Source of the DNA: Seleniivibrio woodruffii
GTDB taxonomy: Bacteria; Chrysiogenota; Deferribacteres; Deferribacterales; Geovibrionaceae
Direction: 5' to 3'
Assembly: GCF_004339245.1 (NCBI RefSeq)
Contig: NZ_SMGG01000003.1
Coordinates: 1,116,770-1,180,769 of the forward strand
DNA length: 64,000 nt
A program made the translations under genes and the position numbers. How positions within the stretch are numbered: the first letter of the stretch is position 1; each line of letters begins with the position of its first letter. The notes beneath the pieces are model-generated. The model did not search any database. It saw only the letters and a program-made list of their open reading frames with translations, and was not told the DNA's origin. This document shows, piece by piece, positions 16,336 through 57,191 of the stretch.

Positions 16336-16443
16336 ATGAGTGTTATTTTTTTAATAGCCGCCGCCGCTGTCATTGTTTTCAGAACCGCAAAAACAGCCGA
16401 AAGGCTTTTCGATGAGATAGCCGACACGGTTAAAGTTATCTAA
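16336..16443 (+). CDS. 35-residue predicted single-pass membrane protein
   Basis: Short open frame with a good ribosome site (GAGGTGAC, 4 bases before ATG). The product begins MSVIFLIAAAAVIVFRTA, a likely membrane helix, followed by an amphipathic acidic tail (AERLFDEIADTVKVI). It lies between the divergent cassette and the B12 riboswitch; its end is 9 bases from the riboswitch promoter. Function unknown; no family recognised. Confidence 0.5.
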   Translation: MSVIFLIAAAAVIVFRTAKTAERLFDEIADTVKVI

Positions 16444-16451
16444 AAGTTCCG

Positions 16452-16480
16452 TTGACTTTTTCAGCCCCATTATGCAGAAT
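16452..16480 (+). promoter_or_regulatory. Candidate promoter of the nrdD riboswitch transcript
   Basis: TTGACT at 16452-16457, a 17-base spacer, then CAGAAT at 16475-16480. It lies just upstream of the cobalamin aptamer. The -10 is a weak match. Confidence 0.45.
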
Positions 16481-16483
16481 AGC

Positions 16484-16630
16484 CTATCGGGAATCAGGGA
16501 AGTCCGGTTAAACTCCGGCACTGCCCCCGCAACTGTAATCCGGACGAAATCTCCAATGAAGTCACTGCCTTAAAGCGGGAAGACGGAGAGAGTAGGTTGA
16601 TGGAGAGTCAGGATACCTGCCCCGAAGTAA
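16484..16630 (+). promoter_or_regulatory. Cobalamin (AdoCbl) riboswitch aptamer
   Basis: It has the conserved core GTCCGGTTAAACTCCGGCAC followed by TGCCCCCGCAACTGTAA, and the downstream B12-box element GTCAGGATACCTGCC. A closing helix TCGGG/CCCGA joins 16487-16491 with 16621-16625. The gene controlled is the anaerobic, B12-independent ribonucleotide reductase. Binding of cobalamin should lower its expression; B12 riboswitches ahead of B12-independent reductases are known in other bacteria. Confidence 0.95.
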
Positions 16631-16700
16631 CCAGCGGAGGGATGGATGATCTTGCGTCATTCCATTAATTTCAATCATACTTTTCATAGTCTAATTGTCA

Positions 16701-16730
16701 TGTCCTCCAGTTGTGCCCAAAGGAGGAAAC
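16701..16730 (+). promoter_or_regulatory. Ribosome-site sequestering hairpin (riboswitch expression platform)
   Basis: TCCTCC (16703-16708) can pair with the Shine-Dalgarno GGAGGA (16722-16727), and CATG on each flank can extend the pairing. This would hide the nrdD ribosome site, so the switch probably acts on translation. No terminator with a T-tract is seen here. Confidence 0.6.
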
Positions 16731-18782
16731 ATGATAGAGAAGGTCAGCAAGCGTGACGGCCGCTTTGTTCCGTTCGATGCGGAGCGAATAGCCAACGCAA
16801 TCTACAAGGCCGCAAAGGCGGTGGGCGGAACCGACAGAAACATAGCGTCGGCATTGTCCATCAAGGTTTGCAGACGCATAACCGACAAATACGGCCATTA
16901 CGGAGCTGTGTCCGTTGAAGAGATTCAGGACGAGGTTGAGAAGGTTCTCATCGAGTCCGGACACGCCAAAACCGCAAAAGCATACATCATCTACAGAAAA
17001 CAGAGATCGGAGATGCGTGACCTGAAGGAAGCGTTCGGCGGTCTGGAATCCATAGTGGAGGAGTATCTGGGCGGCAGCGACTGGCGGGTGAACGAAAACA
17101 GCAACACAACCTATGCCCTGCAAGGCCTGAACAACTATATCTCATCAAAGATAACCGCCAAATACTGGCTGAACAAAATATATCCCCAGAACGTTCAGGA
17201 AGCTCACGTCAACGGCGAATATCACATCCACGACCTTGGTCTTCTGGCTGTCTACTGCTGCGGGTGGGATCTGAAAGATCTTCTGACCCGTGGTTTCGGC
17301 GGCGTGACTGGAAAAGTTGAGAGCAGACCGCCCAAACATTTCCGCTCTGCTCTTGGTCAGATTGTAAACTTTTTTTACACTTTGCAAGGCGAGGCGGCGG
17401 GTGCACAGGCGTTCTCAAACTTCGACACCCTCCTTGCTCCCTTCATAGCCTATGACAAACTCTCCTATTCGGAAGTGAAACAGGCCATGCAGGAGTTCAT
17501 TTTCAACCTGAACGTGCCTACCCGTGTGGGCTTTCAGACGCCCTTCACCAACCTGACCATGGATCTGTACGTTCCCAAGGCGTTCCGTGACGAAGCAGTC
17601 GTTATCGGGGGCATGCCGCAGGAGCGCACCTACGGCGAATTTCAGGAGGAGATGTTCCTGTTCAACAAAGCCTTTATCGAGGTTATGCAGGAGGGGGACG
17701 CAAAGGGCAGGGTGTTTACCTTCCCCATCCCCACCTACAACGTTGACAAGAATTTCGACTGGAACCACCCCATAGTCACCGACCTGATGAAGATAACCGC
17801 TAAATACGGCACTCCCTATTTCGCAAACTTCGTCAACAGCGACATGAGCCCCGATGATGCACGCAGTATGTGCTGTCGTCTGAGACTGGACAACCGTGAG
17901 CTTCGCAAACGGGGCGGCGGTCTGTTCGGTGCGAACCCGCTGACAGGTTCTATAGGCGTTGTTACCATAAACCTGCCCAGACTGGGCTTTACTGCAGGAA
18001 ATGAGGCGGAATTTTTCGACAGGCTGTCAAAGCTGATGGAGTTGGCCAGAGAGGGGCTTCGAATCAAAAGAAAATCACTGGAAAAGCTCACCGCCAACGG
18101 GCTTTATCCCTACTCGAAACACTATCTGTCCGATATTTACGCACAGCACGGTCAGTACTGGAAAAACCATTTCAACACCATAGGCATAATCGGAATGAAC
18201 GAGTGCCTGCTGAACTTCCTCGGTGTGGACATAATGCACGAGCAGGGGCTTGAGTTCTCAGTCAAAGTGCTGAACTTCATGCGGGACAAACTGGCAGATT
18301 TCCAGAACGAAGACGACATGCTCTATAACCTTGAGGCAACGCCCGCCGAAGGAACATCATACCGCCTTGCCAAAAAGGATGTTTCCGACTTCGACGGTAT
18401 CGTGACTTCCGGTTCGGCGGAGAGACCCTACTACACCAACTCAACACAGATTCCGGTGGAACAGACCCGTGACCTGTTCAAGGCGATGTCACATCAGGAT
18501 AAACTGCAGCCGCTATACACCGGCGGAACAGTTTTCCATGTCTTCCTCGGCGAGGCTGTGGACAACCCCGAAACCGTGGCTAAACTGCTGGAGAACATCA
18601 CAAGCACCTATGCGATGCCCTATATCACAATAACCCCGACATTCTCAGTGTGCCCTGTCCATGGCTACATCAAAGGCGAACACAGGGAATGCCCCCTCTG
18701 CGAAGAGGACAAAAAACATGAGATAAACCGCCAGATCGAGCGGATAAAAGCGGAAATAGAACAGGAGGTATCTAATGGATAA
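16731..18782 (+). CDS. nrdD: Anaerobic (class III) ribonucleoside-triphosphate reductase, large subunit without glycyl-radical domain
   Basis: 683 residues reducing ribonucleoside triphosphates to deoxy forms without oxygen. An ATP-cone (residues 1-95, KRDGRFVPFDAERIANAI) is followed by the ten-stranded barrel with the MCCRLRLD active-site Cys pair at 381-382. A zinc-site region follows (CPVHGY at 641 and CPLC at 654-657). The chain ends about 25 residues later, exactly where the glycyl-radical domain should begin; that domain is encoded by the next gene. The ATG at 16731 is set by AGGAGG. The last 8 bases overlap the next start. Expression should be repressed by cobalamin. Confidence 0.93.
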   Translation: MIEKVSKRDGRFVPFDAERIANAIYKAAKAVGGTDRNIASALSIKVCRRITDKYGHYGAVSVEEIQDEVEKVLIESGHAKTAKAYIIYRKQRSEMRDLKEAFGGLESIVEEYLGGSDWRVNENSNTTYALQGLNNYISSKITAKYWLNKIYPQNVQEAHVNGEYHIHDLGLLAVYCCGWDLKDLLTRGFGGVTGKVESRPPKHFRSALGQIVNFFYTLQGEAAGAQAFSNFDTLLAPFIAYDKLSYSEVKQAMQEFIFNLNVPTRVGFQTPFTNLTMDLYVPKAFRDEAVVIGGMPQERTYGEFQEEMFLFNKAFIEVMQEGDAKGRVFTFPIPTYNVDKNFDWNHPIVTDLMKITAKYGTPYFANFVNSDMSPDDARSMCCRLRLDNRELRKRGGGLFGANPLTGSIGVVTINLPRLGFTAGNEAEFFDRLSKLMELAREGLRIKRKSLEKLTANGLYPYSKHYLSDIYAQHGQYWKNHFNTIGIIGMNECLLNFLGVDIMHEQGLEFSVKVLNFMRDKLADFQNEDDMLYNLEATPAEGTSYRLAKKDVSDFDGIVTSGSAERPYYTNSTQIPVEQTRDLFKAMSHQDKLQPLYTGGTVFHVFLGEAVDNPETVAKLLENITSTYAMPYITITPTFSVCPVHGYIKGEHRECPLCEEDKKHEINRQIERIKAEIEQEVSNG

Positions 18783-18942
18783 AAAAGAAAAACTTCAGGA
18801 ACTGCAAGCGGAACTGGAAAATGTCAAAGGAACTCCCTGTGATGTTTACAGCCGTGTGGTGGGCTACCACAGCCCCGTTAAACAATGGAACGAAGGCAAA
18901 AAGGAAGAATTTGAACACAGAGAGACCTTTCAGGTTAAGTAA
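18775..18942 (+). CDS. Separate glycyl-radical subunit of the class III reductase (NRDD C-terminal domain)
   Basis: 55 residues, missed by length filters. After a short coiled segment it carries PCDVYSRVVGYHSPVKQWNE, the glycyl-radical signature of NrdD, with the radical Gly at position 30. It has its own ribosome site (AGGAGG, 7 bases before ATG) inside the end of nrdD and a start that overlaps it in another frame, so this is an organised gene split, not a random frameshift. Its stop shares a base with the activase start (TAATG). By analogy with the YfiD/GrcA radical subunit of pyruvate formate-lyase, it should dock on the large chain. Confidence 0.88.
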   Translation: MDKKEKLQELQAELENVKGTPCDVYSRVVGYHSPVKQWNEGKKEEFEHRETFQVK

Positions 18943-19619
18943 TGGCAGTTGAAGACTTTTTTCTGGCAGACTATCAGCATGTGAGCCTCATGGAGTATCC
19001 CGGAAAGATCTCATCCATAGCCTTTACCCACGGGTGCAACCTGAGATGCAGATATTGCCACAACCCCGCACTGGTTGCGGGCAGAAAAGGGTCGAACAGA
19101 CTGCCCGATTTTCTGGACTATCTGAAAGGCAAAGACATTGAGGCCGTCGCCCTCACCGGCGGCGAGCCTCTTTTGGCTGACGATATCGCGGGCTTTCTAA
19201 AGGGCATCGTTGATATGGGACTTGCTGTCAAATTAGACACCAACGGCTTTCTGCCCAACAGGCTCAAAAAGGTTCTGTCGGCAGGTCTCGTTGACTATGT
19301 GGCCGTTGACCTGAAGGCGTTCAACGATGTCGACCTGAAAGCCATCGTGCGCACTAACCATAAACTTGATTCGTTTTTCAGGACTTTGGATGTTCTGAAA
19401 ACATCGGGTGTGCCTTTCGAGATTCGCCATACCATCTGGAAAATGCCCTCCGAGGCTGATGTTGCTTCGGTTGCCGAACATGTCGGCGATGCCCCGCTGT
19501 TTGTGCAGACGCTCAGGGACGTTCGTATGCTTGATAAGTCATATAAACCTGAGATTTTCGACAGGTCGGCGGCTGTGGAGCTGTTTGAAAAGTATTTTAA
19601 GGATGTTTGGGTGCGGTGA
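18942..19619 (+). CDS. nrdG: Class III ribonucleotide reductase activating enzyme (radical SAM, NrdG2 type)
   Basis: 225-residue radical SAM enzyme that generates the glycyl radical on its partner using S-adenosylmethionine and a [4Fe-4S] cluster. The cluster motif HGCNLRCRYCHNP has Cys at 32, 36 and 39, followed by the SAM-binding ALTGGEPLL. The N-terminus (QHVSLMEYPGKISSIAFT) is typical of the NrdG2 branch. It overlaps the glycyl-radical subunit gene by one base. Substrate recognition here should be the separate 55-residue protein. Confidence 0.93.
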   Translation: MAVEDFFLADYQHVSLMEYPGKISSIAFTHGCNLRCRYCHNPALVAGRKGSNRLPDFLDYLKGKDIEAVALTGGEPLLADDIAGFLKGIVDMGLAVKLDTNGFLPNRLKKVLSAGLVDYVAVDLKAFNDVDLKAIVRTNHKLDSFFRTLDVLKTSGVPFEIRHTIWKMPSEADVASVAEHVGDAPLFVQTLRDVRMLDKSYKPEIFDRSAAVELFEKYFKDVWVR

Positions 19620-19725: not shown

Positions 19726-21000
19726 TTATATCCCCGAAATCTGTCTCGCCATTTCAGTGGCGTAATTATCAGTCATTCCCGAAATATAGTCAGTGACCTT
19801 GTGCAGGGCCTCGTACATGCCTTCGCTTTCGGCTGGTGCGCTGTCGCCCATTATCTTTATAATGTGATTTGTTCGGTCTTTGGATTTACCCTCTGAAACA
19901 TGGTCGTATACAGCCTCGCAGAAGGTCTCCAGCAGTATGCTCATAACGTTGTATGCGCCAACCTCAAGCATCAGCTTTCTGCTGTTCTGGTATATCACCT
20001 CACTGCTAAGGTCTTTTATGCGTTTAATAGGTTCTGCAAACACTGAATTTTCAGGAAGGTTATATTTTCCGAGGCTTCCGTCCATTATTGCGCCGTAGTT
20101 TTCGAAAAACTCGTCCACCACAGCCCCGACGCATTTGTTTATGGCTATTGCCCGCAGGTAAGCTATGGCCTCTTTGGGTGTTTTGCCCGACAGTTTTTCT
20201 TCTGCTGCGCCGCAGATGCCGTTCATGAGGTTTTTAACCTCTTCATATCTCAGAATACCCATTTCATAGGCATCCTCAAGGTCTATGATACTGTAGCATA
20301 TGTCGTCCGCCGCTTCGGAAAGATATGCCAGCGGGTGGCGGCTGTATACTCCGTCTTCTCCCGCCAGTCCTGTTTTCTGTGCGATATCTTCAAGGATCCT
20401 GCTTTCGCTTCTGAATGCGCAGTATTTTTTAAGGTCATCGTTATATTTCACCCACGGATACTTCATCATGGCCGCTATCACTGCATAGGTGGGGCGCAGT
20501 CCGCCGTCGTTTTTATACATGGCAAGACGGGTCATAATGCGCAGAGCCTGTGCGTTGCCTTCGAAAGCGGTGAAGTCGGTTTTCTGTGACTCTGAAAGTG
20601 ACTCGAAATATTTGGTGCCGTTGGTGGTGAACCATTCGCTGATGATCGTTTCGCCCATGTGTCCGAACGGCGGGTTGCCGATGTCGTGGGCGAGACATGC
20701 CGCCTGAACTATCTGCCCGATGCGGTCGGGGTTCATGTGTTCGGGGAGTTTTTCTATGCGTGCGCCAACCAGAGTTCCGAGGCTTCTGCCGACGCAGGAA
20801 ACCTCCAGACTGTGGGGAAGGCGTGAGTGAACGTTGTCGTTACTGCGCATGGGGTGAACCTGCGTCTTTCTGTCCAGCCTGCGGAAAGAGTCCGAGAAGA
20901 TGATGCGGTCGAAATCTATGCTGAACGGATTTCTTGCCTCATCAAAAGGTTTCGGTGCTTCGTTCAGTCTGTCACAGTTGAGCAGTTTGTCCCACTGCAT
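19726..21000 (-). CDS. dgt: dGTP triphosphohydrolase (HD-domain dNTPase)
   Basis: 424 residues, similar to dGTPases that cleave dNTPs to nucleoside and triphosphate and so adjust dNTP pools. The N-terminus holds FRRLDRKTQVHP and RLPHSLEVSCVGRSLG. The metal-binding HD motif AACLAHDIGNPPFGHMGE lies near residue 90, and ADDICYSIIDLEDA carries a later metal ligand. It converges on nrdDG, so both genes bearing on dNTP balance are neighbours, though on opposite strands. Substrate preference (dGTP only, or broad) cannot be told from sequence. Confidence 0.92.
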   Translation of the reverse strand: MQWDKLLNCDRLNEAPKPFDEARNPFSIDFDRIIFSDSFRRLDRKTQVHPMRSNDNVHSRLPHSLEVSCVGRSLGTLVGARIEKLPEHMNPDRIGQIVQAACLAHDIGNPPFGHMGETIISEWFTTNGTKYFESLSESQKTDFTAFEGNAQALRIMTRLAMYKNDGGLRPTYAVIAAMMKYPWVKYNDDLKKYCAFRSESRILEDIAQKTGLAGEDGVYSRHPLAYLSEAADDICYSIIDLEDAYEMGILRYEEVKNLMNGICGAAEEKLSGKTPKEAIAYLRAIAINKCVGAVVDEFFENYGAIMDGSLGKYNLPENSVFAEPIKRIKDLSSEVIYQNSRKLMLEVGAYNVMSILLETFCEAVYDHVSEGKSKDRTNHIIKIMGDSAPAESEGMYEALHKVTDYISGMTDNYATEMARQISGI

Positions 21001-23325: not shown

Positions 23326-23338
23326 GTTTACTTAGGAT

Positions 23339-23517
23339 GCCCCTGCTGTGTTTGTGCATCATATGAAAATTGGAGCCAATACTCCAGAAAAGGGGGATGA
23401 TACTGATTGCGGTGTGCAAGCCTGCCTCGTAGCAGGAAGCCTGATGCGTCGTGATTCCTCCGCCCTGATGAACAGGGCTACAATTGGATTATGGTTACGG
23501 CATGTGCGGGGGCTTTT
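23339..23517 (+). ncRNA. ssrS: 6S RNA candidate (SsrS)
   Basis: About 180-nt structured RNA. The ends pair perfectly (GCCCCTGC 23339-23346 with GCGGGGGC 23506-23513, one G-U) and TTTT follows. Inside are hairpins TGGAG/CTCCA, CCTGC/GCAGG and GCCCTG/CAGGGC. Stretches such as GCAGGAAGCCT and CAGGGCTACA..TACGGCAT resemble the apical loop and 3' strand of 6S RNA. The position after zapA and upstream of the 5-formyl-THF ligase gene is the classic ssrS site, here with rarA between. 6S RNA binds housekeeping RNA polymerase. Exact ends are estimates. Confidence 0.72.
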
Positions 23518-35701: not shown

Positions 35702-36373
35702 TCAGCCGCCTGTAATCACAATGCATGCGGCTTTTGTTTTTTCGCATGCGTCTATCTTTTCCTGCAAACCGCCGGAATCACCCGACAGCTTGGTCACCAG
35801 CGCATCAGCCCTTATCTCTTTCATCAGAGCTGTATTGAACTCCTCCGAAAAGGGTCCCTGCATTGCGATTATCTGTCTATATTCCGCCCCCGCTTCCCTG
35901 CATTTCTGTATGGACTTTTCAAACGGCAGGATGCGGACGGTGCATCTGCTGATTATTTCCTTAAAAGCGTCTATGCGGTTCGAGCCGATGGTGAGCAGAA
36001 CCGAGCTGAACTCTGCGGCCTTCGCCGCCGCCTCTTCATAGGTTTCCACAACGATGATGCCTTCGTAGTCCGAATCCAGTTTCGGGTTGCGCATTGCGTT
36101 TATGTATTCAATGCCCAGCTTTTCCGCCGTTTCCACAGCCAGTGCGGTTATGTTCTTTGCGAAAGGGTGGGTGGTGTCGGCTATTGCGGTTATCCCGTGC
36201 TCTTTTATGAAGGCGGTCAGGCTGAGTTCGTCAAATCTGATTTGAACAGTGGGGAAATCCTTTGAAAAGGATTCGAACCCGTATTCGGTGGCCACAGTGA
36301 CGATATAATCGCAGTCGAGTTTTTTTATATATTCACGGCTGTCAGATGTGCCGCCAAGTACCAGAATTTTCAT
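35702..36373 (-). CDS. cbiJ: Cobalt-precorrin-6A reductase (CbiJ/CobK)
   Basis: About 223 residues reducing a double bond of the corrin precursor with NAD(P)H. It opens MKILVLGGTSDSREYIKK, followed by ADTTHPFAKNIT and ALVTKLSGDSGG near the end, all typical of CobK/CbiJ. I start at 36373, where the ATG overlaps the upstream stop (TGATG); the longer frame adds unrelated residues. It is the last gene of the cbiDEFGHJ operon. Confidence 0.93.
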   Translation of the reverse strand: MKILVLGGTSDSREYIKKLDCDYIVTVATEYGFESFSKDFPTVQIRFDELSLTAFIKEHGITAIADTTHPFAKNITALAVETAEKLGIEYINAMRNPKLDSDYEGIIVVETYEEAAAKAAEFSSVLLTIGSNRIDAFKEIISRCTVRILPFEKSIQKCREAGAEYRQIIAMQGPFSEEFNTALMKEIRADALVTKLSGDSGGLQEKIDACEKTKAACIVITGG

Positions 36374-37098
36374 CAGACCGGATATCCTCTGGGGGTTACC
36401 ATTTTGCCGTCTATCAGTATTGTTTTCCTGCATCCCACAATGACAATCGAGGTCATTCCCACAAAGTCGTAGTCGAAGTTGGAAATGGCGGATATTTTCA
36501 CCGACTGGTTTTCACGGAAAGCGTCTCTGACGGTTCCTGTGATAAGGTCTCCCCGTGACTGCATGAAGGTGTTGAGCGCATACTCAATCTGCTGAGTGCG
36601 TTTCATGCTTTTGGGGTTGTATATGGCCGTGACAAAGTCTCCGGCGTTAACGGCATCTATGCGTTTTTTAATTACTTCCCACGGGGTCAGAAGGTCCGAC
36701 ATGGAGATTATGGCCAGATCATCCGCAATGGGCGCACCCAGAAGTGATGAGGCCGCCATTGCCGCTGTCACCCCTGCGATAACCTCTATATCGACCTTGC
36801 CGTCCGCCAGCTGATACACCAGCGAAGCCAGGGAGTAGAGCGACGGGTCGCCGCCGCATATGAGGCATACGTCGTGTCCGTCCTTTGCGAACTGAACAGC
36901 TGTCTCCGCCCGTTCAACTTCGCCCTTCATTCCGCTGGTGAAAACGGGCGTTCCTGCGGGAATAATGTCCGCCACCTGCTCAACGTATTTGTCATAGCCG
37001 CAAACGGCCGTGCAGTTCTCAATTGCGAATCTTGCCTGAGCCGTCATCATCTCTTTGCTTCCGGGACCTATGCCCGTAAGAATAACCTTTCCCATCAT
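36373..37098 (-). CDS. cbiH: Cobalt-precorrin-3B C17-methyltransferase (CbiH/CobJ)
   Basis: About 241 residues, a SAM-dependent tetrapyrrole methylase that also drives ring contraction. GKVILTGIGPGSKEMMT opens the fold, with CGYDKYVEQV, LICGGDPSLY and VIAGVTAAMAASSLLGAP following. The ATG at 37098 or 37095 fits the GGAG site; a GTG at 37101 is less likely. No fused domain. Confidence 0.93.
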   Translation of the reverse strand: MMGKVILTGIGPGSKEMMTAQARFAIENCTAVCGYDKYVEQVADIIPAGTPVFTSGMKGEVERAETAVQFAKDGHDVCLICGGDPSLYSLASLVYQLADGKVDIEVIAGVTAAMAASSLLGAPIADDLAIISMSDLLTPWEVIKKRIDAVNAGDFVTAIYNPKSMKRTQQIEYALNTFMQSRGDLITGTVRDAFRENQSVKISAISNFDYDFVGMTSIVIVGCRKTILIDGKMVTPRGYPV

Positions 37099-37883
37099 CA
37101 CTCCGAAAGAAATCCGGTCATTTCCTTTGAAATTGCTACCGTAACACTTTCATATATAGTTTTTTTAAGTACCAAAGTTGTATTAAATCCGGCCATAAGT
37201 GCACATGGCTCTGCAACTGCTTTTACTCCGATGTGCCTTGCCGCAGCCGTTTCCTCGACTTCATAAGGGCAGTAGGTGAATAGATGCTCAGGCAGGAAGC
37301 GGAGATATATACCAAGCTCGTCCGCCGCATCGATCAGCCCCTGTTCGTTCTCCTTCACCCATGCGGAAGCTATAAGCCTGAGCTGTGCAATGTCGATTTT
37401 TGCATCAGCGCAAGCCTGTGTCAGCGCAGAGATTATCTGTTCCTTTTTCGTGTCTTTTCTGCATCCGACACCAGCAATATACAGCTTGTTTGCCTCTGTT
37501 GCCGTGGTTATGACGGGTACGGCTCCTGTGATGGATGCCACTCTGTGAGCCAGTCTGTTTGCGCCGCCTTCGTGGCCCGATACTGCGCTGATGGCATATC
37601 TGCCCACCTCATCGCAGACCACCACGGCGGGGTCTTTGTATTTGCTTTCAAGGAGCGGGGCTGTGACACGGGTCACTATTCCCTGTGCCATAACGGCCAC
37701 TATGCCGTCATACTCCTGAAATAATTTTTCAAAACATTCTTTTATTGATGAATATTTTATAGAGTCATAGCCTGAAATTTTTTCAGAGAGATAAAGCTCT
37801 GCTCTGAGTCTGTCGGCAATATATTTTGCCTGAACTGCTCCCTTATCGGTGACGGCGATGACCGCCAGTCTACCTGTATTCAT
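37098..37883 (-). CDS. cbiG: Cobalt-precorrin-5A hydrolase (CbiG)
   Basis: About 261 residues that open the lactone and release acetaldehyde, a step unique to the oxygen-independent route. MAQGIVTRVTAPLLESKYKD, VVCDEVGRYAISAVSGHEGG and AGVGCRKDTKKE are family marks. The length fits the two-domain form without a large insert. The ATG at 37883 is preferred (AGGG 9 bases upstream) over one at 37901 that lacks a ribosome site. Confidence 0.93.
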   Translation of the reverse strand: MNTGRLAVIAVTDKGAVQAKYIADRLRAELYLSEKISGYDSIKYSSIKECFEKLFQEYDGIVAVMAQGIVTRVTAPLLESKYKDPAVVVCDEVGRYAISAVSGHEGGANRLAHRVASITGAVPVITTATEANKLYIAGVGCRKDTKKEQIISALTQACADAKIDIAQLRLIASAWVKENEQGLIDAADELGIYLRFLPEHLFTYCPYEVEETAAARHIGVKAVAEPCALMAGFNTTLVLKKTIYESVTVAISKEMTGFLSE

Positions 37884-38613
37884 GGCTGAATGCCCTGTCA
37901 TATAGCTTTGAATAGGTCTCCGGCGTGCCGCCGACTGCTCTTCCCGCCAGAATCATTGTCTGCTTGGTCATTCCGTTCTCTTTCAGGGTCTTTTCGAGGT
38001 CTTTAAGCAGACATCGGGCTATCTTCTGATCTGCCCAGCTGGCTCTGTAAACCAGAACAACGGGAGTTTCTCCGCTCCAGCCGTTTGCCGTCAGGGTATC
38101 GGCGATGAACTGCCCCTGTCCTGCGGACAGAAAGAAGGCTATCGTTCCGCCGACTTTGGCGATGGCCGAAAGCTCTTCGGGCATGGGTGTCCTGCCGGGG
38201 GTGCGGGTGATTATCACCGTCTGGGAGATCTCTGGCATGGTCAGTTCAATGTTCGCCGCCGCCGCCGATGCCGCCATGCTGGTCACTCCGGGCACTGTTT
38301 CGTATTCTATGCCCAGTTTGTCCAGCTCTGCAATCTGCTCGCCGGTGGCTCCGTAGAGTGCGGGATCGCCTGTGTGCACACGTGCAACGTTTTTATTCTC
38401 TTTATGTGCTTTTTTGATTATTTCAACTATTTCATCCAGATTCAGAGGGGCTGAATCGTATATTTCGGCATCATTTGAGGCATATTTCAGGATATCGGGA
38501 TTAACAAGGCTTCCGGCGTATATCACAACGGGGCATTCGCCTATGAGTCTTGCGCCCTTAACCGTGATAAGCTCCGCATCCCCCGGTCCTGCGCCGATAA
38601 AATATACCTTCAT
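37870..38613 (-). CDS. cbiF: Cobalt-precorrin-4 C11-methyltransferase (CbiF/CobM)
   Basis: 247-residue SAM-dependent methylase. It begins MKVYFIGAGPGDAELITVKG, with YAGSLVNPDIL, ARVHTGDPALYGATGEQ and TVPGVTSMAASAAAANIELT, all characteristic of CobM/CbiF. It overlaps cbiE by 4 bases and cbiG by 14. Confidence 0.95.
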   Translation of the reverse strand: MKVYFIGAGPGDAELITVKGARLIGECPVVIYAGSLVNPDILKYASNDAEIYDSAPLNLDEIVEIIKKAHKENKNVARVHTGDPALYGATGEQIAELDKLGIEYETVPGVTSMAASAAAANIELTMPEISQTVIITRTPGRTPMPEELSAIAKVGGTIAFFLSAGQGQFIADTLTANGWSGETPVVLVYRASWADQKIARCLLKDLEKTLKENGMTKQTMILAGRAVGGTPETYSKLYDRAFSHEYR

Positions 38614-39206
38614 GCCGTTTTCTCCTCCAGAACTATTATCATTCTGGATGTTTTTTTATAATCGCTTATGCCAGCGAAAACCCCTTCGGAGGGCAGGCTG
38701 ATATCGCTCAGTACGAAAATATTGAATTTTTCCTCTATCTGGGGAAATTTTGCGGCTATTGCAGAGGGGTTATTCACCTCATCGCAGAGGATAACCGTTG
38801 AAACTTCCGGACATTCATCAAAAAGTTCTCTGCCGTGAACGGACATGAATCTGTAGCCGAACCACTGCTTTTTTAGCAGTGCGAATCCTGCGCAGACGGA
38901 GCTGACACCGGGAATTATTGTCACGTTTTCAAAAGCAGCAGTAACGAATCTGGCAAGGCTGAAAAAACCTGCGTCACCTGACACAAGAACGCCTATCCTG
39001 CTTTTCGGGCAGTCTTTTATGAAGTTCACACAGTCGGTCTTCATGTTAGCGGGGATATAGTGCTCCTTATGTTTCGCAAAGGTTTCCACAGCATCCTTCA
39101 TGCCGATGATCATCTCCTGATCCTCTATGGCCTTATGTCCGCGCAGGGTTATGAGGTCATGCGCCCCCGGCCCCACGGAGATTATTGTGATTTCAGAGTC
39201 TTTCAC
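38610..39206 (-). CDS. cbiE: Cobalt-precorrin-7 C5-methyltransferase (CbiE)
   Basis: 198-residue methylase (ISVGPGAHDLITLRGHKAIE; VLVSGDAGFFSLAR; IIPGVSSVCAGFALL). It corresponds to the N-terminal half of CobL. The partner decarboxylating methylase CbiT is not fused to it and is not in this operon, so it must lie elsewhere. It overlaps cbiD by 14 bases. Confidence 0.9.
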   Translation of the reverse strand: MKDSEITIISVGPGAHDLITLRGHKAIEDQEMIIGMKDAVETFAKHKEHYIPANMKTDCVNFIKDCPKSRIGVLVSGDAGFFSLARFVTAAFENVTIIPGVSSVCAGFALLKKQWFGYRFMSVHGRELFDECPEVSTVILCDEVNNPSAIAAKFPQIEEKFNIFVLSDISLPSEGVFAGISDYKKTSRMIIVLEEKTA

Positions 39207-40170
39207 CCTTTTTCCTCCCGCTCATGTCATAGAAGATAACAGAAACGTGCCTGAAACCGTAGTCTTTTTCTATCTTTTCCGCCAGTTCCGCCGCTATGAA
39301 CGACAGATCGGCATCGGAGGAGGTGAGTATCTCCTCGACGGTGTTGAATTTTTCGTTGAGTTCCAGCCGCTCCGCCAGCCAGTCCGTTGCCATGGGCGAT
39401 CTCTTTGAGTGGGTGTTGTAGTACCCCATCAGAATTTTGCAGAGCTTTGCGGGGTGTCCCGCAACGTATATTCTGTCAAAACCTTTGAATTTTGCGTACT
39501 CAAAGGCTTCGTATGCGTAGTTGCTCATCAGTATCACAGGAACAGACCGGAAATTTTCCGAAAAATGCTTTTCGCCTATCTTGCCGGGCGTGAGGCATAC
39601 GGTGTCTCTGCCCTCTGCCGCCGCAACGTCTATTTCGCATTTTATGGTCTCTATAATTGCTTCAACGCTCATGGGAGTGACGATTCCAGTTGTTCCGATT
39701 ATGGAGATGCCGCCCACCACCCCGACTTTTTCATTGAAGGTCTCTTTTGCTATCCGTTCGCCATCGGGAGCGTAAATGGTGACATCTGCCCCCTTTTCTC
39801 CCAGAAGTTTCGACAGGTTCTCCTTTATCATCTTTTCGGGAGCGGGGTTTATTGCGTGCAGGCCGACATCCACCTGAAGTCCCTTTCTGGTGACTATTCC
39901 TATTCCCTGACCGCCCTTTATATCGATTTTGCCGCTGTCGTTTATTGTGCAGTCGGCATAAATTTTCATTCCGTGGGTGGCGTCGATGTCGTCGCCGCCG
40001 TCTTTGACAGCATAGAAACCGTCTATATCTCTGAACACCGGAATATGAGCTATGGTTCCGTTTGGCAGGGATATATCGGCTATTTCTATAATGCGGTTTG
40101 ACAATTTAAAGACGCATGATGCCGCCGTAGCGGCACAGGCTGTTGTTCCTGTGGTGTAACCGTTTCTCAA
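39193..40170 (-). CDS. cbiD: Cobalt-precorrin-5B C1-methyltransferase (CbiD)
   Basis: 325 residues. It opens RNGYTTGTTACAATAASCV, the hallmark of CbiD, with GGDDIDATHGM, GIGIVTRKGL, TPGKIGEKHF and YVAGHPAKLCKI further on. It is specific to the anaerobic cobalamin route. The start codon is TTG at 40170 behind AGGAG. It is the first gene of the minus-strand operon, facing pyrF. Confidence 0.94.
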   Translation of the reverse strand: MRNGYTTGTTACAATAASCVFKLSNRIIEIADISLPNGTIAHIPVFRDIDGFYAVKDGGDDIDATHGMKIYADCTINDSGKIDIKGGQGIGIVTRKGLQVDVGLHAINPAPEKMIKENLSKLLGEKGADVTIYAPDGERIAKETFNEKVGVVGGISIIGTTGIVTPMSVEAIIETIKCEIDVAAAEGRDTVCLTPGKIGEKHFSENFRSVPVILMSNYAYEAFEYAKFKGFDRIYVAGHPAKLCKILMGYYNTHSKRSPMATDWLAERLELNEKFNTVEEILTSSDADLSFIAAELAEKIEKDYGFRHVSVIFYDMSGRKKGERL

Positions 40171-54881: not shown

Positions 54882-57191
54882 TTATGAACAGTGTGAGTAT
54901 CCGCAAGAGTAGCAGATATCGCATCCTTCCACATGCTCAACGGGGCCGCCGCAGTCGGGACATGCGCCGTTTTTAACCTTGATGCCTTCCTGTTCGGCCT
55001 TTTCAGCCTTCTCAAGGAGCTTGTCCACGGTGATGCTGTCGTCCTGTTTGCCGCTGACCTTTATCTCGGTGTTGTCTCTGAGAGCCTGCTCAAGGGCTTT
55101 GCCCACCGCATCGGAACAGCTGAGCACGGTGTTGGGTCCGAATCCGTATCTCATGTGACAGCTGATACCTTTCAGCTGTTTGATGATACGGTCGATTTCG
55201 CCGCCGCTTCTGAGGTTGATGGAGATGAGACGTCCGATGGCCTCGCACTGGCTCTGGGCGCAACCGCCGGCCTTACCCATGCTGGTGAACACTTCAAACG
55301 CCTTGCCGTTCTCGTCCTGATTGATGGTGACATAGAGCTTGCCGCATCCTGTCATCATTTCAACAGTGCGCCCCACCAGAACCTTGGGTCTGGGTTTGGG
55401 AGCGAACACACAGGGTTCCTGAGATACCGATTCGGGTTTTGCCTCTTTGTCCTTTGTTCCGACATTGAGAACCTGACCGGTACGGCTTCCGTCTCTGTAT
55501 ATTGTGGTTCCCTTGCATCCGAGGTTGTATGAAAGAAGGTACGTCCTGCGTACGTCCTCAACAGTCGCCTCGTTGGGGAAGTTAACGGTCTTGCTTACTG
55601 CGTTGTCGGTGAACTTCTGGAATGCAGCCTGCATTTTAGTATGCCAGAAGGGGGTGATGTCGTGTGCCGTAACGAAGGCTTTCTGCCATTTTTCGGGCAC
55701 AGACTCGATGTCGTGAACCGCACCTGTCTCAGCCACCTGATCAAGAAGCTCATCGGTGAGGAATCCTTCTCTTTTAGCGATATCTTTGAAAACAGGGCTG
55801 ACCTCAACAAGTTTGTTGTTATCCATTACCTGTCTGTAGAATGCGATTGCGAAGAAAGGCTCGATACCGCTGGAGCATCCTGCGATGATTGAGATTGTTC
55901 CTGTGGGTGCAACAGTAGTGATGGTTGCGTTGCGCATGTTTTTGAAGCCCTTCGCAGGGTACACGCTGTCTTTGAACGTGGGGAAATCGCCTCTGATCTC
56001 TGCCAGAGCGGCTGATTTCTCACGGCCTTTGTCACGGATGAACTGCATAACGTCTTCGGCGAGTTTTGTGGCTTCGTCGGAGTTGTAGGGGATGCAGAGC
56101 ATGGCCAGCATGTCCGCCCAGCCCATAAGACCCAGACCTATCTTGCGGTTGCGCTTGGTCTGTCTGTCTATCTCGGGGATGGGATATTTGTTCATATCGA
56201 TTACGTTGTCGAGGAAATGTACGGCAACGGTGATTGTCTTCTCAAGGTCTGCCCAGTCGATCTGGCCGTCTTTAACGAACCTGCCGAGGTTGATCGAGCC
56301 GAGGTTGCAAGATTCATAGGGCAGAAGAGGCTGCTCACCGCAAGGGTTCGTGCTCTCCATTTCGCCCTCTTTGGGGGTGGGGTTTTCGGCGTTTATCCTG
56401 TCCAGATAAACGATGCCGGGGTCTCCGCCCTCCCATGCCAGCTGAACCATCTTGTCGAACACGTCCTTGGCTCTCAGCTGACCCGCAACGGATTTTGTCT
56501 TGGGGTTGATGAGGTCGTATTCTTTGTCTTCAAGAACTGCCTGCATGAACTTTTCGGTGAGACCGACGGACAGGTTGAAGTTTGTGAGCTTCGTTTTGTC
56601 CTCTTTAGCGTAGATGAAATCCATTATATCCGGGTGATCCACACGAAGGATACCCATGTTGGCACCGCGGCGTGTGCCGCCCTGCTTGATTGTTTCGGTT
56701 GCGGCATCAAAAACGGTCATGAAGGAAACGGGACCGCTGGAAACGCCTCTGGTGGTTTTTACAACGTCGTCCTTGGGACGAAGGCGGGAGAATGAGAAAC
56801 CTGTACCTCCGCCAGATTTATGGATGAGAGCGGTGTTTTTGACCGCTTCGAAAATGCCTTCCAGTGAGTCTTCCACAGGAAGAACGAAACAGGCGGCAAG
56901 CTGCTGAAGCTCACGTCCGGCGTTCATCAGAGTGGGTGAGTTGGGCAGGAACCTGAGGGTTACCATCTGCTCATAGAATTCTTTGGCGGAGGCGAGTATG
57001 TTTGCGTTCTTGTCGTAGAGTTTGTCGGCTTCTGCAATGTTCAGAGCGACCCTGCGGAACATGTCGATGGGTTTTTCGGAAGGTTTTCCGTTATTATCCC
57101 TTTTCAGGTATCTTTTTTCCAGAACGGTTATGGCGTTCTGATTCAATTCGGGCTCACGAGAAAGTGCTTTCTCGATGTCCTTCACACTCAT
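54882..57191 (-). CDS. nrdJ: Adenosylcobalamin-dependent (class II) ribonucleotide reductase
   Basis: 769 residues reducing ribonucleotides with a radical from adenosylcobalamin, so it works with or without oxygen. The active-site NPCGEQPLL is near residues 282-290, after GIVYLDRINAENPTP and SGPVSFMTVFDAATETIKQG. The C-terminus carries CPDCGG and CDICYSCGYSHC, cysteines that re-reduce the active site or bind zinc. No N-terminal ATP-cone is evident. It starts behind GGAGGAGAT. Its cofactor would come from the cbi genes at 35.7-40.2 kb. A structured leader (57192-57398) suggests regulated elongation. Confidence 0.95.
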   Translation of the reverse strand: MSVKDIEKALSREPELNQNAITVLEKRYLKRDNNGKPSEKPIDMFRRVALNIAEADKLYDKNANILASAKEFYEQMVTLRFLPNSPTLMNAGRELQQLAACFVLPVEDSLEGIFEAVKNTALIHKSGGGTGFSFSRLRPKDDVVKTTRGVSSGPVSFMTVFDAATETIKQGGTRRGANMGILRVDHPDIMDFIYAKEDKTKLTNFNLSVGLTEKFMQAVLEDKEYDLINPKTKSVAGQLRAKDVFDKMVQLAWEGGDPGIVYLDRINAENPTPKEGEMESTNPCGEQPLLPYESCNLGSINLGRFVKDGQIDWADLEKTITVAVHFLDNVIDMNKYPIPEIDRQTKRNRKIGLGLMGWADMLAMLCIPYNSDEATKLAEDVMQFIRDKGREKSAALAEIRGDFPTFKDSVYPAKGFKNMRNATITTVAPTGTISIIAGCSSGIEPFFAIAFYRQVMDNNKLVEVSPVFKDIAKREGFLTDELLDQVAETGAVHDIESVPEKWQKAFVTAHDITPFWHTKMQAAFQKFTDNAVSKTVNFPNEATVEDVRRTYLLSYNLGCKGTTIYRDGSRTGQVLNVGTKDKEAKPESVSQEPCVFAPKPRPKVLVGRTVEMMTGCGKLYVTINQDENGKAFEVFTSMGKAGGCAQSQCEAIGRLISINLRSGGEIDRIIKQLKGISCHMRYGFGPNTVLSCSDAVGKALEQALRDNTEIKVSGKQDDSITVDKLLEKAEKAEQEGIKVKNGACPDCGGPVEHVEGCDICYSCGYSHCS

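Follow-up and report, generated by a model that had tools for sequence, protein, structure and literature searches.

A predicted cobalamin riboswitch and a candidate upstream ORF precede a putative two-chain class III ribonucleotide reductase in Seleniivibrio woodruffii

Introduction

A 64-kb stretch of the Seleniivibrio woodruffii genome (64,000 nucleotides, hereafter the window) encodes two ribonucleotide reductases (RNRs), the B12-independent class III enzyme NrdD and the B12-dependent class II enzyme NrdJ. The original prediction placed a cobalamin aptamer ahead of nrdD and proposed that cobalamin switches off class III when class II can work. Does the nrdD leader set a choice between the two reductases, and by which route would it act on nrdD? 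The first part of this question has a history: B12 elements were described before nrdDG in Desulfovibrio vulgaris and Desulfuromonas, with the proposal that the B12-independent isozyme is repressed when NrdJ can work (Rodionov et al., 2004; PMC545781). The main isozyme-choice idea has therefore been in print since 2004, and the window adds a member.

Results

The Rfam scan gave one Cobalamin riboswitch match in the window (E 3e-19; Table 1), directly upstream of nrdD, which is followed by a glycyl-radical ORF and then by nrdG. With 84.1 bits it clears the curated RF00174 gathering score (31.5 bits), and the aptamer predicted ahead of nrdD was thus recovered. Similarly, profile matches (NF006126, TIGR02495 and NF006417) placed nrdD, nrdG and the class II nrdJ where they had been described. 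In the RF00174 alignment the B12 box and the junction core are intact (GCCCCCGCAACUGUAA; AGUCAGGAUACCUG).

Table 1. Positions of the features discussed, in window coordinates
Feature	Position	Strand	Basis and remarks
Predicted promoter of the leader	16452..16480	+	-35 TTGACT 16452-16457, 17-nt spacer, -10 CAGAAT 16475-16480; predicted start near 16487
Cobalamin riboswitch aptamer (predicted)	16487..16630	+	RF00174, 84.1 bits; Rfam match spans 16446-16638
Post-aptamer hairpin, P13/L13 position	16631..16645	+	CCAGC-GGAGG-GAUGG; loop GGAGG also a Shine-Dalgarno (SD) sequence
Candidate upstream ORF (uORF), 36 codons	16646..16756	+	ATG 5 nt past L13 GGAGG; overlaps nrdD start in another frame
Predicted hairpin closing the nrdD ribosome site	16703..16726	+	anti-SD UCCUCC 16703-16708 with SD GGAGG 16722-16726
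nrdD main chain (ATP-cone, barrel, zinc site), without glycyl-radical C terminus	16731..18782	+	NF006126, 1034 bits
55-aa glycyl-radical ORF, motif RVVGY	18775..18942	+	PF13597 532-562; own SD AGGAGG and ATG
nrdG activase (NrdG2)	18942..19619	+	TIGR02495, 156.8 bits
cbi genes (cbiD, tetrapyrrole methylase, cbiF, cbiG, cbiH, cbiJ), without riboswitch	35702..40170	-	profile matches
nrdJ, B12-dependent class II ribonucleotide reductase	54882..57191	-	NF006417, 1204.8 bits

At the 5' end of the match, the P1/P2 helices of the Rfam model are poorly paired, as would be the case if the aptamer were decayed or non-functional and had been kept by chance beside nrdD. This is very improbable, because the core boxes are intact at 84 bits, the association with nrdD is conserved across families of the phylum, and the badly paired end is overlapped by the predicted promoter. 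The promoter hexamers (TTGACA/T, 17 nt, CAAAAT/CAGAAT) recur at this position in most nrdD leaders of the family, and also in another family of the phylum. Judged from this conservation, the badly pairing 5' part of the match is promoter and not RNA, and the leader transcript probably starts near 16487. Given this predicted start and the nrdD ATG at 16731, the span 16484-16730 first proposed for the leader was a good estimate.

No NrdR boxes with 12/16 matches were found before nrdD. The L5 and L13 loops showed no consistent complementarity across the leaders compared, and an L5-L13 kissing contact is not demonstrable in that way. Upstream of the promoter, a small ORF of 35 aa (16337-16444; MSVIFLIAAAAVIVFRTAKTAERLFDEIADTVKVI) encodes one likely membrane helix; its C terminus is conserved in five of five genomes of the genus and it has no Pfam match.

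The genome, 2.9 Mb in size with a completeness rating of 100%, contains two Cobalamin riboswitches in total. The window NrdJ is its sole PF02867 enzyme, and no class I RNR was found in it, the best PF00268 match (20 bits) being below the cut-off. We compared the positions of RF00174, PF13597, PF02867 and PF00268 matches in 60 relatives, which share descent, so that the counts are not independent trials. A short distance before nrdD, and in the same orientation, the riboswitch is present in 23 of the 23 relatives that have both NrdD and NrdJ, the class II identity of the PF02867 matches in these 23 genomes resting on the absence of NrdB. None of the three relatives with NrdD but without NrdJ (G021, G032 and G058) carries it before nrdD, an absence confirmed by Rfam scan. 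One genus (g13) lacks NrdD and has class I nrdB and nrdA; there, the riboswitch is directly before nrdB in nine genomes. The exceptions are two reduced genomes, G046 and G047, which both have NrdAB and carry no Cobalamin match; the second large-subunit gene of G046, the one of the two that was checked, is NrdJ.

Because the riboswitch pairs with the presence of NrdJ across genomes and class I is absent here, we favour the isozyme-choice reading. In the presence of coenzyme B12 the riboswitch would lower the class III reductase and NrdJ would make deoxyribonucleotides; under B12 scarcity, the class III reductase would be produced. The proposal that cobalamin switches off class III when class II can work thus finds strong support in the comparative pattern (23/23 versus 0/3) and in the lack of a class I RNR, while ligand binding and the OFF direction are assigned by analogy with the riboswitch family. 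In conclusion, the leader element is likely to be the cobalamin riboswitch of the nrdD - glycyl-radical subunit - nrdG operon and an OFF switch for the class III reductase. The location of nrdJ and the cbi genes within the same 64 kb, which was part of the initial argument for isozyme choice, carries no weight.

It had also been proposed that the sensor acts on the choice of consumer rather than on this synthesis operon. As stated, the cbi operon of the window (in which the tetrapyrrole methylase gene is at 38610-39206) has no riboswitch: no Cobalamin match was found around it even at E<=5, and cbiD is separated from a divergent orotidine-phosphate decarboxylase ORF by only about 118 nt. The other Cobalamin riboswitch of the genome, 310 kb away, lies upstream of cbiK and of a tetrapyrrole methylase gene that we interpret as cbiL, and the contrast with synthesis is therefore only partly right: from the placement of the two elements, B12 is predicted to be sensed at two points, where its synthesis begins and where the reductase is chosen, of which the original prediction covered only the latter. 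A third Cobalamin riboswitch, before an apparent start of metE (B12-independent methionine synthase), is carried by four relatives of the genus (L158-L161) and is absent from the genome of the window. Two neighbouring features were recorded: a dGTP triphosphohydrolase gene (19726-21000) is convergent to and adjoins nrdDG, which puts a dNTP-degrading beside a dNTP-making enzyme, and a 6S RNA (RF00013, 80 bits) is located at 23337-23516.

Outside the phylum, Rfam scans detected a Cobalamin-clan switch no more than 500 nt before nrdD in 18 of 76 loci; they superseded a regular-expression search of 80 distant nrdD loci, which had recovered 17 of 22 known riboswitches. Several of these distant leaders have terminators and nearly all lack the L13 uORF described below. 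A candidate-phylum (Berkelbacteria) genome has an AdoCbl riboswitch (RF01482; L105, 2784-2915) 56 nt before nrdD.

Immediately downstream of the aptamer, the P13 stem covaries while its GGAGG loop is invariant: over seven distinct sequences, 31 of 35 cells are paired, a value reached by 2 of 5000 shuffles. A start codon follows the L13 GGAGG by 5-9 nt in all 21 nrdD leaders that have this loop (ATG in 20, TTG in one), and none of the 21 has an ATG at a spacing of 10-39 nt; counting one leader per family, the probability of this pattern by chance is about 1e-6. A distance of 5-9 nt is the normal Shine-Dalgarno-to-start spacing. The uORFs of the nrdD leaders vary from 6 to 46 codons, most having 6-17. 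Their peptides are hardly conserved, and peptide conservation was not used as evidence. In genus g13, the class I nrdBA leaders have six-codon uORFs at the corresponding position (MRYNSI, MCVYSF and similar), where the spacers are 7, 10 or 11 nt. Within the same genera, cbiK and metE leaders lack the feature, and a similar one occurs in a few other B12 leaders of the phylum. In nine of the g13 leaders (L147, L150-L157), an apparent long-range stem with a T-run at its end (CTAACCAGACAG ... CTGTCTGGTTAGTTTTT) was seen past the uORF, and is possibly a terminator.

The nrdD SD of the window is closed in the folding model, with an unpaired probability of 0.001 versus 0.21 in shuffles. The closing pairing was also found in genus relatives (G001, G003 and G004); several families close the SD no more than shuffles do. 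In the genus of the window the SD stays closed whether the upstream hairpin is present or absent; the model opens it only when the uORF carries a ribosome. We favour translational control, in which B12 would fix the post-aptamer hairpin, whose GGAGG loop would be the ribosome site of the uORF; without B12, the uORF would be translated and the ribosome would open or adjoin the closed nrdD ribosome site. For a B12 riboswitch that works through a uORF there is an experimental precedent in Mycobacterium tuberculosis ppe2 (PMC11260477), and the window leader is of the ppe2 type in that the ribosome site of the candidate uORF is inside a regulatory hairpin (L13 GGAGG, ATG 5 nt on). Against this step, the overlap of the uORF with the nrdD start could also inhibit in the genus of the window. 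On balance, a uORF step in nrdD control is quite possible.

The main rival of the uORF mechanism is direct sequestration. B12 would lock L13 to the aptamer, so that CCUCC (16704-16708) could pair with the nrdD SD and close it; in the absence of B12, the L13 GGAGG would take the anti-SD and nrdD would be translated, the ATG after L13 being incidental. Both the L13 GGAGG and the nrdD SD are complementary to this same CCUCC, L13 pairs downstream with a probability of 0.65 in the folding model, and the L13 of M. tuberculosis metE overlaps an anti-anti-ribosome-site (PMC11260477). However, the model keeps the SD closed in both states in the genus of the window, and conservation across all families holds for the start codon after L13 but not for the anti-SD; we therefore regard direct sequestration as doubtful. 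A simple thermodynamic competition between L13, anti-SD and SD was rejected, as the SD of this genus remained closed under it.

Alternatively, control could be mainly transcriptional, B12 blocking translation of the uORF and Rho cutting off the untranslated leader. Such a mechanism is known for other riboswitches with uORFs, as in the M. tuberculosis Mbox (PMC12810186), and is consistent with the window leader, in which neither an intrinsic terminator nor a terminator-like site was found. The fact that most uORFs have only 6-17 codons argues against it, and we consider it unlikely. Returning to translational control through the uORF, the full scheme in which the B12 sensor of the RNR operons of this phylum acts not on the reductase gene but on a uORF with its SD in the loop of the docking hairpin (L13), licensing class III or class I synthesis, together with a two-chain class III enzyme, is put forward tentatively.

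The nrdD ORF ends after the zinc site, matching NF006126 only up to 662 of 684 and PF13597 over 1-534 of 562. It has the fold and catalytic core of a class III NrdD, but the glycyl-radical loop is not in the same chain: it is encoded by the 55-aa ORF, which overlaps the nrdD stop in another frame. The split is conserved in relatives, with the small ORF sometimes in the same frame after the stop and sometimes in another frame, at a varying distance; in G018 it is about 600 nt further on, and G049 alone has a fused gene. A frameshift or a sequencing error was ruled out by this variation of frame and distance between species. The gene is also split in about 16 of 80 NrdD loci of other phyla (L070, L072, L076, L081, L086, L093, L104, L133 and others), another seven being unclassified. 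In an alignment of 42 sequences, the glycine and the residues around it do not vary. AlphaFold gave a confident NrdD fold for the two chains joined (mean pLDDT 87), a junction used as a modelling device and not as a claim of fusion, and the model matches the class III structures 8p23, 9dca and 4u3e. The class III enzyme is thus very likely, on this comparative evidence, to be a two-chain protein with a separately made glycyl-radical subunit, and it would still work like NrdD if the two chains assemble.

Discussion

The nrdD operon of S. woodruffii resembles nrdDG of D. vulgaris and Desulfuromonas in having a B12 element in a genome that encodes NrdJ, with the same proposed isozyme choice, and in relatives of these bacteria cbiK-cbiL is also under a B12 element (PMC545781). 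It differs by belonging to another phylum and by the L13 uORF and the split NrdD, neither of which is described in the available sections of that paper. Moorella sulfitireducens (L074) similarly has RF00174 directly before nrdD; its leader, unlike that of the window, contains an intrinsic terminator and no L13 uORF, and its NrdD is fused. What is new here is a possible uORF step and, besides it, the predicted two-chain class III enzyme, both read from sequence.

Regarding the uORF, the proposed mechanism is like that of M. tuberculosis ppe2/metE in being a translational OFF switch, with a ribosome-site hairpin involving L13 and a uORF between aptamer and gene (PMC11260477). The genes under control are others, and uORF translation was measured there and is proposed here. 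In addition, the SD in the present leaders is the L13 loop itself, and this pattern recurs across families.

Regarding the split, no published description of a split NrdD was found in the open literature, which misses most subscription journals. Related arrangements exist in other enzymes: YfiD/GrcA is a spare-part glycyl-radical protein, in which, as here, the glycyl-radical domain forms a small protein. In Pseudomonas aeruginosa, the class II RNR is likewise split, a radical enzyme cut into two chains (PMC4520616). Unlike in these two systems, the protein divided here is a class III reductase, with the break falling after the zinc site and before the glycyl-radical loop.

This leader is an unusually clean member of its kind, the switch following the presence of NrdJ and moving to class I nrdBA where NrdD is absent. 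The split NrdD provides a natural system for exchanging the radical-bearing part of a glycyl-radical enzyme, like a spare part. If the uORF is translated, riboswitch control via a uORF would not be a mycobacterial oddity.
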